Of a DNA stretch of 64,000 nucleotides, positions 1-51,030 are shown one piece after another (within the stretch, counting starts at the first letter, position 1; every line of letters begins with the position of its first letter). A program made the translations under genes and the position numbers. Location of the stretch: assembly GCF_001618145.1 (NCBI RefSeq), contig NZ_LQNF01000009.1, forward strand, positions 1-64,000, given 5' to 3'. Source of the DNA: Oceanobacillus damuensis (lineage in GTDB: Bacteria > Bacillota > Bacilli > Bacillales > Amphibacillaceae). Below the pieces are notes generated by a model. It had not been told where the DNA came from. It was given only the letters and a program-made list of their open reading frames with translations, and ran no database searches.

Positions 1-298
1 CTTCCCGTAGGAGTCTCCGTGTATTTCCCCGAGCTGGTTAGAGGATTGCTTATTATTTTTTCATTTATAACAGCTAAAATAATATCTTACAACTACACCA
101 GTCCGGGATCGCTCCGGGCGGTGACTCCTGCGGGAATAGCACGTGTCCGAAGACCCCGCAGAGTGGTTTTCTCGAGGAGGCTGAGGCCGTGCCCGCGGAA
201 AGCATCCGCCCGGAGTGATCCCGGACGGCAGCAAAAGCGCGTTTTTCGGGAATAGAACTACAGTTTCTTCGCATTTATATCAACTGCGAAGTAAGCCT
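1..298 (+). repeat. Intergenic two-module repeat, copy 1 (truncated by window edge)
   Basis: The first 40 bases match the end of module A as seen at 50800-50837 (CTCCGTGTATTTCCCCGAGCTG). Module B follows, with the core from CTCCTGCGGGAAT through GAGGAGGCTGAGGCCGTG to CCCGCGGAAAGC at about 124-203. The core is enclosed by inverted arms at 101-121 and 206-226 that pair at 20 of 21 positions. The end carries a small hairpin, CTTCGCA...TGCGAAG (268-292), which recurs at the ends of the other copies. Two open frames cross this stretch but they follow the repeat and are not genes. There is no transposase, so I treat it as a structured non-coding repeat, either mobile or RNA-like. Confidence 0.8.
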
Positions 299-12294: not shown

Positions 12295-12885
12295 TTGTGT
12301 ATAAAATGTGTAGATTGCGACGGAACTTAGGCTTATTCCCAGAGATATATGCTTCTCCCGCCGTCCGGGATCGCTCTGGGCAGTCGCTTTCCGCGGGCAC
12401 GGCCTCAGCCCCGAAGAGAAAACCACTCTTCTGGTCTTCGGACACGTGCTTTTCCCGCAGGACAAGGAAGGCTTCGTCAGCTTTCACATCGCACGAAGAA
12501 AATTGGTTTTTATTTTCGAGGAGTCGACTGCCCGCCGCTCACCCGTACTGGTAAAGCTGTATAATTAGATTTTGTTATTAAGGATGCAGTTTATTAGCAG
12601 CAAACTTAACCAGCTCGGGGAAATACACGGAGACTCCGTGAAAATGCGTCCGCATTTTCTGCGTGCGATGTAGCGCTGCCGAAGCTTTCCTTGTCCTACG
12701 GGACGAGAGGCATAGGTGAGCCACTGAAATGCGTGATTCTTGAAGGGGCTCACCAGCCGCCTTAGGATGCGCGCAGTGTATTTCCCCGAGCGGTCGCCGA
12801 AGTATCTCGCTTCCATTATTCGTGCCAAAGTTCTAACACAAATAGAAGTTACGTCGCATTTTATATCTACTGCGAAGATTCTAAT
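12295..12885 (-). repeat. Intergenic two-module repeat, copy 2 (inverted, rearranged)
   Basis: On the reverse strand this copy reads module A (about 12830-12611) then module B (about 12490-12363), the same order as in the forward copies. Module A is bounded by inverted 15-mers, CTCGGGGAAATACAC (12614-12628) and GTGTATTTCCCCGAG (12776-12790). Module B keeps its core but one arm has been replaced: the expected partner of GTCCGGGATCGCTCTGGG is missing, and GACAAGGAAGGCTTCG (12461-12476) instead pairs with module A at 12680-12695. The terminal hairpin motif is at 12848-12875. Short frames inside it are repeat-derived. Confidence 0.8.
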
Positions 12886-36405: not shown

Positions 36406-36440
36406 AATAAGCATACTAATAAGTAAACCAATATACGAAA

Positions 36441-36779
36441 GCGATGACAGGGAAGAGTACAGAGTAAACGCCTAAAAGAGAGGGAAATCAAGTGCTGAGA
36501 ATTTCCCAGGCAGGTTGTTCTGGAAGGTCGCCCAAGATGCAGCTTCTTTGAAATTGTAGTAGAGGAAGCCGGTCATTGACCGTTATCAATACATGAGTGT
36601 ACAAACTCTTTCATAGTGCAGATAAGCAGGTGTAAACCTTCTCTATTTGTATTCATGCAAATAGGGCATTTGCCTGAATGCATGGGGACTGCCAGCATAT
36701 TCCGAGTTTGTAAACAAAGGTGGTACCACGGAAGCTTACCCTTTTCGTCCTTTATTTCAGGATGAAAAGGGTTTTTTAG
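36441..36779 (+). promoter_or_regulatory. T-box leader of valS
   Basis: Starts with GCGATGACAGGGAAGAGTA, the usual 5' side of Stem I. The specifier loop probably presents GTC (valine) at 36527-36529. The T-box sequence AAAGGTGGTACCACGG (36716-36731), which binds the NCCA end of uncharged tRNA, is followed by the terminator ACCCTTTTCGTCC...GGATGAAAAGGGTTTTTT (36738-36776). Uncharged tRNA-Val should allow readthrough into valS. Confidence 0.93.
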
Positions 36780-49000: not shown

Positions 49001-49765
49001 ATGGACAAAGATATCAGAGAAATAAGAAAGTCTATTGAACAGCGGAAGAAAAATCGGGGGCTCAATCCAGGAACTGATACCAAAAAACAAGTCATGTCTC
49101 CTTTTCCAGAAATAGAAGAGAAACATGGCTACTATCCTGTATTTACCGGTACGGGTGAACCAAGATCCAAAAACAATGCAGTGGCTGGTGTTGCAGTAAA
49201 AGGAATTTTGTCCGTCATGCTTTTTTTGGGTACCGCAATTGTCTGGCAAACGGATTCTGATCTTTTAGAAACGCCTAAGCAATGGACAAGCCAAGTTCTG
49301 ACAGATGAATTTCCGTTTGCAAAAGTAAATGTGTGGTATAAGGAAGCTTTTGGCAGACCATTATCTTTGACACCTAATCCTGTGGCAGAGGTGGATCAGT
49401 CACAAACAATAGCTTTGCCTGTTTCGGGTAGTATTACAGAATCCTTTCAGGCCAACGGAACAGGAATTATGATCAGTCCAGGTGAAACGGCAACAGTATC
49501 CGCAATTCGGGAAGGGGTTGTCATTTTTGCCGGAAATGATAGGGAAACAAACAAAACGGTAACGGTACAACACTCGGATGGATCTGTATCCAACTATGGC
49601 AATCTAAGCTCTATTGATGTTCATCTATATCAGTTTATCACAGGGAATCAGCGAGTTGGAAGCTTTGTACCTGATGTGGAAAATGAAACCGTATATTTCT
49701 CAATTGTAAAAGATAATGATTATATTGATCCTGTACAGGTGATCCCGGTTGATGAACTTCAGTAA
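49001..49765 (+). CDS. spoIVFA: Stage IV sporulation protein FA
   Basis: A 254-residue membrane protein that holds SpoIVFB inactive until the SpoIVB signal arrives. A basic cytoplasmic N-terminus, one transmembrane segment near residues 65-85 (KGILSVMLFLGTAIVW) and a C-terminal M23/LytM-like domain (GTGIMISPGETATVSAIREG...VTVQHSDGSVSNYGNLSS) are visible. The domain lacks the full zinc histidine set, as is normal for SpoIVFA. ATG at 49001 is chosen; a GTG three codons earlier is possible. The end overlaps spoIVFB. Confidence 0.93.
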   Translation: MDKDIREIRKSIEQRKKNRGLNPGTDTKKQVMSPFPEIEEKHGYYPVFTGTGEPRSKNNAVAGVAVKGILSVMLFLGTAIVWQTDSDLLETPKQWTSQVLTDEFPFAKVNVWYKEAFGRPLSLTPNPVAEVDQSQTIALPVSGSITESFQANGTGIMISPGETATVSAIREGVVIFAGNDRETNKTVTVQHSDGSVSNYGNLSSIDVHLYQFITGNQRVGSFVPDVENETVYFSIVKDNDYIDPVQVIPVDELQ

Positions 49766-50612
49766 ATATTTGCCGAGTATCCATCTCCATCCTGTGCTTT
49801 ATATTTTTATTGTCATTTCTTTTTTGACAGGTACGTTCCTGGAATTATTCATTATCTTTTTTCTCGTACTGTTTCATGAAATGGGACATTATGCTGTTGC
49901 TAGAAATTTGAAATGGAGAATCGGAAACATCGTTCTTTGGGTATTTGGTGGCGTTATGGATACCGAGGAACATGGGAATAAACCAATAAAAGAAGAAGCA
50001 CTCGTTACCCTGGCAGGTCCTTTCCAGCACTTGGTCATATATTTTCTGTGCTTTTTGGCAGAATCTTTTTACCTTGTTCCGGTATCTGTTGTCGAGCTCG
50101 TGCTATACTATAATACGGTCTTATTATTATTTAATTTACTTCCCATTTGGCCTTTGGATGGAGGTAAATTACTGCTTTTAATTTTATCTGCATACATTCC
50201 TTATAAAAAATCCTATCAGTTTACAATTTTGTTTTCTATGGTTACTACTGTCTGTGTTCTACTCATTCAGCTCTTGTTTTTCCCTTTTACATTAAGCTCA
50301 TTTTTTATTTGGTTATTTTTGTTTGGGGAAAACAGGTCTGACTGGAAACAGCGCTCCTATGTATTTATGCGATTCCTGCTAAAGCGATATGAAGGGGAGT
50401 CTTCCATTAACGGTGTTATCCCAATTAATGTTGCATCTGACAGTACTTTTTTAGAGCTTTTTTCGCGGTTCAGAAGAGAGAAAAAACATCCCGTCTATAT
50501 AATCTATCCAGGGAATGAACGAAAATCGGTCGATGAAACGGATTGTCTTCAAAGCTATTTCTATGAAAGAACCTATGATACTTCTGTTGGAGAAGCATTT
50601 TTATATAAATAA
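49752..50612 (+). CDS. spoIVFB: Intramembrane metalloprotease SpoIVFB
   Basis: A 286-residue site-2-type protease that cuts pro-SigK in the mother cell. The zinc motif HEMGH (residues 42-46) in the second hydrophobic segment and the partner motif NLLPIWPLDGGK supply the catalytic site. Four to six membrane segments and a C-terminal cytoplasmic CBS-like domain (FLELFSRFRREKKHPVYIIY) complete it. The ATG overlaps the end of spoIVFA by 14 bp. Its product would activate the SigK that reads the gerE promoter at 13767-13795. Confidence 0.94.
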   Translation: MNFSKYLPSIHLHPVLYIFIVISFLTGTFLELFIIFFLVLFHEMGHYAVARNLKWRIGNIVLWVFGGVMDTEEHGNKPIKEEALVTLAGPFQHLVIYFLCFLAESFYLVPVSVVELVLYYNTVLLLFNLLPIWPLDGGKLLLLILSAYIPYKKSYQFTILFSMVTTVCVLLIQLLFFPFTLSSFFIWLFLFGENRSDWKQRSYVFMRFLLKRYEGESSINGVIPINVASDSTFLELFSRFRREKKHPVYIIYPGNERKSVDETDCLQSYFYERTYDTSVGEAFLYK

Positions 50613-50635: not shown

Positions 50636-51030
50636 TATTGCGCGGTTGATATAAAGTGCGAAGTAACTTCTATGTTGGGTCTCTAACCTGGTAATGGAAG
50701 CATGTTACTTCGGCAACCGCAGCCCGTATACACTCCGCTTTCCACGGGCGGCTGGTGAGCCCCTTCATGCTATCGCATTTCAGTGTCTCACCTATGCCTC
50801 TCTTCCCGCAGAAGTCTCCGTGTATTTCCCCGAGCTGTTATATTGTCCAGAAAATGAATTCGCTCTTTTATGGCAGTTGATTGGAGCGGAGGACAGTTGA
50901 CTCCTGCGGGAACAGCACGTGTCCGAAGACCCCGCAGAGTGGTTTTCTCGAGGAGGCTGAGGCCGTGCCCGCGGAAAGCAACTGTCCGCAGCGGAAATCA
51001 ACCAGCAGTTACTTCGCATTTTACATATTT
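50636..51030 (+). repeat. Intergenic two-module repeat, copy 3 (complete)
   Basis: The most complete copy. The left end TTGATATAAAGTGCGAAGTAAC (50645-50666) is matched by the inverted right end GTTACTTCGCATTTTACATA (51007-51026), like terminal inverted repeats. Module A runs about 50725-50837 with inverted edges (ATACAC/GTGTAT). Module B runs about 50876-51002, its core flanked by arms GTTGATT...GGACAGTTG (50876-50899) and CAACTGTCC...AATCAAC (50979-51002) that pair with each other. No transposase. Three short frames in it are repeat-derived. Confidence 0.85.

Follow-up and report, generated by a model that had tools for sequence, protein, structure and literature searches.

A folding repeat module of Oceanobacillus damuensis as a probable passenger of mobile elements of different types in the class Bacilli

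A dispersed, self-complementary repeat was followed up in the window, that is, the whole stretch of 64,000 nucleotides of Oceanobacillus damuensis DNA that was analysed, and we consider it reasonably likely that it is a structured passenger domain housed in various types of mobile element across the class, the module of copy 3 being half of a non-autonomous element. Four observations carry this reading, namely the absence of the element from its site in relatives, a covarying fold, the occurrence of several carrier types elsewhere, and the reassortment of cores and arms.

Module B of copy 3 is one half of an inverted pair of modules in an element bounded by terminal inverted repeats (TIRs). 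The order of its parts, TIR, module A on the minus strand, spacer, module B on the plus strand, and TIR, would be that of a non-autonomous, mobile element. These parts, together with those of copy 1 and of a third composite in the window, are the following.

50646 to 50668, plus strand: left TIR of the composite, TTGATATAAAGTGCGAAGTAACT (TIR pattern, at most 3 mismatches)
50725 to 50828, minus strand: module A, of the same structured family (R1 78.5 bits, E 2.4e-21)
50876 to 50899, plus strand: left arm of module B, GTTGATT type (sequence and arm pairing)
50887 to 50991, plus strand: module B of copy 3 (R1 98.6 bits, E 1.9e-27), its arms extending past the model to 50876 and 51002
50979 to 51002, plus strand: right arm of module B, AATCAAC type (19 of 24 positions pair with the left arm, counted on the sequence)
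51007 to 51029, minus strand: right TIR, AGTTACTTCGCATTTTACATATT, an imperfect inverse of the left end, read from the sequence
111 to 216, plus strand: module B of copy 1 (R1 91.6 bits), with arms 101 to 121 and 206 to 226 of the CCGGG type and a fully paired centre
1 to 27, minus strand: possible end of the module A of copy 1, at the window edge (weak, 12.4 bits, E 0.28)
12374 to 12477, minus strand: module B of the third composite (R1 49.4 bits), with a 58-nt hairpin insert in the left arm
12681 to 12782, plus strand: module A of the third composite (R1 25.1 bits, E 3.8e-5)
12847 to 12869, minus strand: terminal repeat of the third composite (TIR pattern, 2 mismatches)

Five module matches in the window thus reach E 4e-5 or better with the R1 model, and modules A and B are recognised as one family by the GACTCCTGCGGGA-like and GCCCGCGGAAAGCG-like joints that both carry around variable stems. 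The repeat extends beyond the arms, being part of composites that, by BLAST among the 39 copies of this genome, span 348-790 bp before giving way to unique sequence; a contig end truncates one of the three shortest, and the window edge another. TIRs bound these composites and typically enclose two modules in opposite orientation; the TIR pattern TTGATATAAAATGCGAAGTAACT and its inverse gave 71 matches in the genome at up to 3 mismatches, versus 0 for a reversed control pattern. At least 105 R1 module matches were recorded in the genome (150 of 444 candidates scored), and, with 104 of the 105 used, adjacent modules less than 700 bp apart were arranged minus-plus in 39 of 40 pairs. Among 45 close pairs in other species, 31 were minus-plus, 12 plus-plus, 1 plus-minus and 1 minus-minus, the plus-plus class including tandem arrays (L124 54-1080 and L167 1525-2762) with periods near 180 and 227 bp. 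In these arrays the spacers are repeated along with the module.

The composite of copy 3 is an insertion between two gene units. The site could be read in 12 of 16 same-genus relatives and the element is absent from all 12, which indicates that it is mobile. One flank is an ORF (49749-50612) that in our own reading encodes an M50-protease, SpoIVFB-like protein, and the other holds the rplU promoter and the L21 leader. Using crude ORF calls and gaps of at least 60 bp, modules were located in 45 of the 217 gaps between tandem genes, in 14 of 60 between convergent genes and in 6 of 80 between divergent ones, and this avoidance of divergent gaps fits insertion at the stem-loops of gene ends. In tandem gaps, with the same crude calls, 32 modules were oriented as the genes and 29 opposite to them, in counts that leave out 28 of 136 modules inside called ORFs and 21 of 136 at locus edges; the balance says little, since most modules are in inverted pairs that force much of it. 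ORFs containing modules are mostly short among the 20 of 28 that were listed. Elsewhere in the window, a T-box leader was recognised at 36435-36755 (111.8 bits against a cut-off of 93).

The first-pass annotation had described a nearly identical core surrounded by unrelated, self-complementary arms in copies 1 and 3, and this description is borne out: positions 122-215 and 50898-50991 form a 94-nt direct repeat with 95% identity, and the arms of both copies are paired. For the arms of copy 1 the earlier count of 20 pairs in 21 was reproduced, as 19 Watson-Crick pairs and 1 G.U. The arms of copy 3, placed in the same 21-position frame, pair at 16 of 21; over the whole 24-position arm, where 19 pair, the five mismatches are all purine-purine. 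The comparison was extended to 38 of the 39 copies in the genome (L017 was left out, no left arm being found in it), after removal of a 58-nt insert that occupies a fixed point of the left joint of module B in 11 of the 38. Arms show a median of 14 Watson-Crick pairs in 21, with at least 17 in 7 copies; in 24 of the 38 the count lies above 13, the 99% point of a null with shuffled arms, and in 14 it does not. They fall into a few types, 3 being GTTGATT/AATCAAC, 9 fully paired CCGGG, and the others mostly CCGGG with a mispaired centre. In line with the first reading, arms are thus neither mostly unpaired nor constant. Regarding the 58-nt insert, its carriers include L013, L014, L034 and the copy at ~12.4 kb of the window, and a related form is also present in module A.

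In layout the module is a ~106-nt imperfect hairpin. Its arm stem and two other stems are variable, and its joints (GACTCCTGCGGGA and GCCCGCGGAAAGCG) and a purine-rich inner loop are conserved. Over 35 pairs in 51 diverged modules, a covariation score of 0.366 was obtained versus 0.123 upon shuffling, none of 500 shuffles reaching it and slid-structure controls giving 0.07-0.12, on the understanding that sequences found by their core and a structure written from the alignment favour the structure somewhat. Paired cells amounted to 81.8% versus 65.7% in shuffles, changes occurred on both sides in 25 of the 35 pairs, and further pair types numbered 80 versus 71.7, with 1 of 500 shuffles reaching 80. 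The compensatory pairs of the module hence exceed both shuffled and slid controls. An alignment-free test of the arms, at one fixed offset, agrees with the covariation of the written structure: 58 non-redundant modules, most of which come from other genomes, show pairing at arm positions k=3-6 in 76%, versus 29-41% when right arms are redealt, and the nine-position pairing sum is 5.43 versus a maximum of 3.53 in 2000 shuffles. Additionally, at columns 44/92 and 45/91 Watson-Crick pairs alternate with a tandem G.A/A.G step. That complementarity is retained while sequence changes, as first proposed from the window, is therefore seen in the arms and inner stems of the 51 diverged modules. The compensatory variation that had been read into copies 1 and 3 holds across those modules, but not between the two copies themselves, which represent two arm types on a shared core.

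Mismatches give some indication of the strand that folds. In 100 modules below 90% identity, arm helices contain 61 A.G/G.A versus 4 T.C/C.T mismatches, an excess that makes the plus strand look the folded one, in the arms, and that comes in part from a conserved AGCG/AGCG inner loop. The opposite is found for the inner stem P2 (20 T.C/C.T versus 6 A.G/G.A), where a single position common to related cores accounts for 18 of the 20, all of them T.C. The plus strand would be the folded one, and the fold may be kept because the element needs a single-stranded form, either hairpin DNA or RNA, for its own spread. Arm helices hold 848 Watson-Crick, 23 G.U and 10 A.C pairs; the ratio of G.U to A.C is 5 to 1 in P2, 0 to 12 in P3, whose anchor may be off, and 43 to 37 over all variable columns. 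These counts are weak evidence for an RNA form, and as a proof of RNA the ratio is not decisive. The first-pass annotation had left the choice between a functional stem and an insertion with inverted flanks, and there is something in both, a maintained stem and a mobile insertion, any functional RNA being no more than putative given the scarcity of G.U pairs in the arms.

Such an RNA, used by the host as a dispersed sRNA or cis-regulator and mobile only incidentally, is in our opinion unlikely. It would account for strong covariation accompanied by conserved unpaired joints, and distant members match the sRNA tsr24 above its cut-off in 6 of 20 loci. Nonetheless, the arms favour G.U over A.C by only 23 to 10, the 32 versus 29 count in tandem gaps reveals no orientation bias (albeit inverted pairs force much of that balance), and one genome bears more than 100 copies, yet 182 of 250 class genomes bear none at E 1e-5. 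At that threshold and with strict filters, module matches appear in 68 of the 250 sampled genomes, the present one included, and in 26 of 106 genera; Oceanobacillus, Lentibacillus, Virgibacillus, Psychrobacillus, Sutcliffiella, Metabacillus, Planococcus, Sporosarcina, Bhargavaea and Evansella are among the matches listed, which are 80 of at least 105 matching stretches. Two plasmid records carry the module, and none of the phage records searched does.

Comparison of 20 loci from the complete genome G061 revealed one 62-nt core that is identical letter for letter in ten copies. One of them (L262) has TTTTGAAGCC/GGCTTAAAA arms and lies in a GGTTCTTT-ended element with a TSD of 6 of 8, and the other nine have GTATTGTAGT/ACTACAATAC arms, 8 of them adjoining an IS1182 gene. 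In the O. damuensis genome the apical hairpin AGTGGTTTTCTC sits in both CCGGG and GTTGATT arms, in copies 1 and 3 alike, and it is found in both GTTGATT-armed copies of the compared set. Elsewhere, it is present in 3 of 3 CCGGG-armed modules and in 0 of 35 GTTGATT-armed ones, and in one of the 126 other-genome modules of the remaining arm classes. This distribution by arm class and genome means that core and arms were reassorted, and we conclude that cores reassort between arm types while the arms stay paired. Mosaics within the O. damuensis genome, in which apical stem halves, the 58-nt insert (11 of 38 copies) and two 3' joints are shuffled, include the recombinants L021 and L036, with apical halves from different types. 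Gene conversion among copies is the simplest cause of the shuffling; conversion between differently armed modules would make the cores within one genome uniform.

Identical cores between unrelated arm pairs, with sharp boundaries, are also what would be observed if the core could move on its own, inserting at the tips of palindromes already present and finding each time a ready-made stem. We regard this as quite improbable, because gene conversion covers the same data without any new mobility and because stretches inspected, unsystematically, yielded no core-free palindrome with matching arms. The composite arm pair without a core in L331 keeps part of the insert, and so looks like a deletion.

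Three copies of the O. damuensis genome with fully paired CCGGG arms have left arms matching the inverted right arm at 17-18 of 20 positions, versus 12-13 for the commoner left arm, which would suit the copying of one arm from its partner. The common CCGGG arm with a mispaired centre is probably the older form, its inner loop being common to other genomes. Compensatory change would restore the pairing of the arms, as would, at times, such copying between the two. Pushed further, the pairing might be functionless, with hairpin-templated copying at replication continually improving imperfect palindromes, and both the likeness of the fully paired arm type to a copy of the opposite arm and the lack of a strong preference for G.U would suit such a process. 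On the contrary, the conserved purine-rich inner loop and the asymmetric joints persist from genus to genus and have not been corrected to perfect pairs, and we give this explanation little credence. L335, whose module A consists of two 3' halves and is nearly palindromic, was rejected as proof of arm copying, since a centre deletion of an inverted A-A pair explains it equally well.

The elements that carry the module differ in their ends and in their target behaviour. In G061, 9 of 11 loci tried are ~175-bp MITEs that contain the module and have both GGTTCTCT/AGAGAACC-like ends recognisable, with 8-bp TSDs that are perfect in 6 and match at 6-7 of 8 in 3. By end sequence and TSD length these MITEs, for which no linked transposase was seen, are putative ISL3 ones. 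In the same genome the module is set inside full-length IS1182-family elements with GAGGCTGGGACATAAA ends, ~112 bp upstream of the transposase, on the opposite strand and pointing away, in 10 of 11 IS1182 loci tested; it is for the GAGGCTGGGACATAAA ends in G061 that an autonomous relative with the same ends was found. Outside G061 the IS1182 link is weak: the same test detected no module at the 2 IS1182 loci of the O. damuensis genome or at the single locus of G228, and the 10 loci of G054 gave one weak match. Ends of the form CAG..TGT.GACAAA lie on both sides of the module in 8 places, 7 of them with a direct copy of a stem-loop outside each end (26 of 26 bases repeated in L179) and the eighth, L101 at 1212, without the duplicated stem-loop; by eye, such ends also bound an IS1182-family gene in G054 (L292). 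Moreover, a GAGGCTGGGACATAA end adjoins modules in L092, L113, L115, L129, L144 and L176, and GGCTCTTTTCGT-ended elements surround modules in L120 and L145, with 8-bp repeats recognised by eye. L134 1803-1990 holds an element of ~185 bp that has GGCTCTTTTC ends and an 8-bp repeat, without a module. In other species most clusters have no detectable TIR, flanking inverted repeats exceeding the 99% null point in 6 of 86, one of which (L167) is a neighbouring module.

As for the O. damuensis genome, no copy was found with both outer ends or a TSD, and no transposase with the TIR of the composites was found in the contigs covered, which are the larger ones. The candidates there are a single gene of the ISL3 family and two matches to IS1182, of which one is full-length and the other a fragment. 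The ISL3-family gene was dismissed as mobiliser on account of ends that do not match the composite TIR, and the IS1182 copies as carriers on account of their lacking a module. The ends at L322 and L294 differ from the composite TIR.

The inverted pairs of modules resemble BIMEs, and the genome contains one gene for a REP-associated tyrosine transposase (RAYT; L201 1450-2040, G000 C2:198832), so that a REP/BIME-like repeat moved by such an enzyme was also contemplated. This seems very improbable, since no module is present in the 3.3-kb stretch around that gene and no association emerges over the 250 genomes, RAYT genes occurring in 35 of 68 module-bearing genomes versus 96 of 182 others (odds ratio 0.95). 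A RAYT-driven REP system was on these grounds rejected as a requirement. By eye, the L201 gene is flanked on both sides by GTGCCTGTCAC-type repeats instead of modules.

Returning to the passenger domain, a bolder version of it is put forward tentatively: the module may be a selfish folding cassette that belongs to no single transposon and is associated with more than one transposase family, its core moving between arms and its structure being inherited apart from sequence and vehicle. If true, the cassette could serve several elements as a common means of getting stem-loop-seeking transposases to find, copy or spare them. Covariation is standard evidence for functional RNA, and here it is strong inside mobile elements; arm copying and core conversion may account for part of it, and the family consequently tests how far covariation alone proves RNA function. 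It also lends itself to the question of how a structure is preserved in selfish DNA, it links the staphylococcal sRNA tsr24 to IS1182-family elements and a Bacilli-wide repeat, and it adds cases of a mobile element with an entire terminator-like stem-loop copied on each side.

Among known families, the Bacillaceae-1 motif, suggested by the first-pass annotation for comparison, turned out to have no involvement, and no Rfam family scores above its cut-off at the module at 50887-50991, where only tsr24 (RF02577) was returned, with 18.3 bits against a cut-off of 50. In 6 of the 20 loci tested (G061 and G228, one genus), on the contrary, tsr24 exceeds its gathering score with 61.7-90.8 bits, and on these distant loci tsr24 is probably a member of the module family, with which it has joints in common such as GACTCCTG.GGGA. 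In Rfam, tsr24 is filed as an S. aureus sRNA gene. The open literature searched yielded nothing on the function of tsr24, and no published description of the module by topic or by core-sequence string. In G228, group II intron domains lie close to a module (L251 1083-1352).

Stem-loop targeting has a precedent in IS1272, an IS1182-family element for which replacement of a stem-loop without TSD is described (PMC5678879). The point in common is that full-length elements of the IS1182 family contain the module in G061; the portion of the IS1272 account available to us features no such module (PMC5678879). The stem-loop families Bhal-1 (74 bp, 36 copies in B. halodurans), Efa-1 and Bcr1 are short, multi-copy and foldable like the module, as far as can be compared from their description in the accessible part of that source (PMC2267715). 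Finally, the pneumococcal BOX, RUP and SPRITE sequences are interspersed structured repeats judged parasitic, some of them expressed, and, in the sections available, are given as nearly absent beyond pneumococcus and S. mitis, with BOX relatives in S. suis (PMC3049150). By comparison with that partial account, the module extends to 26 of 106 sampled genera and resides in elements with different ends, and BOX is the nearest concept to it.
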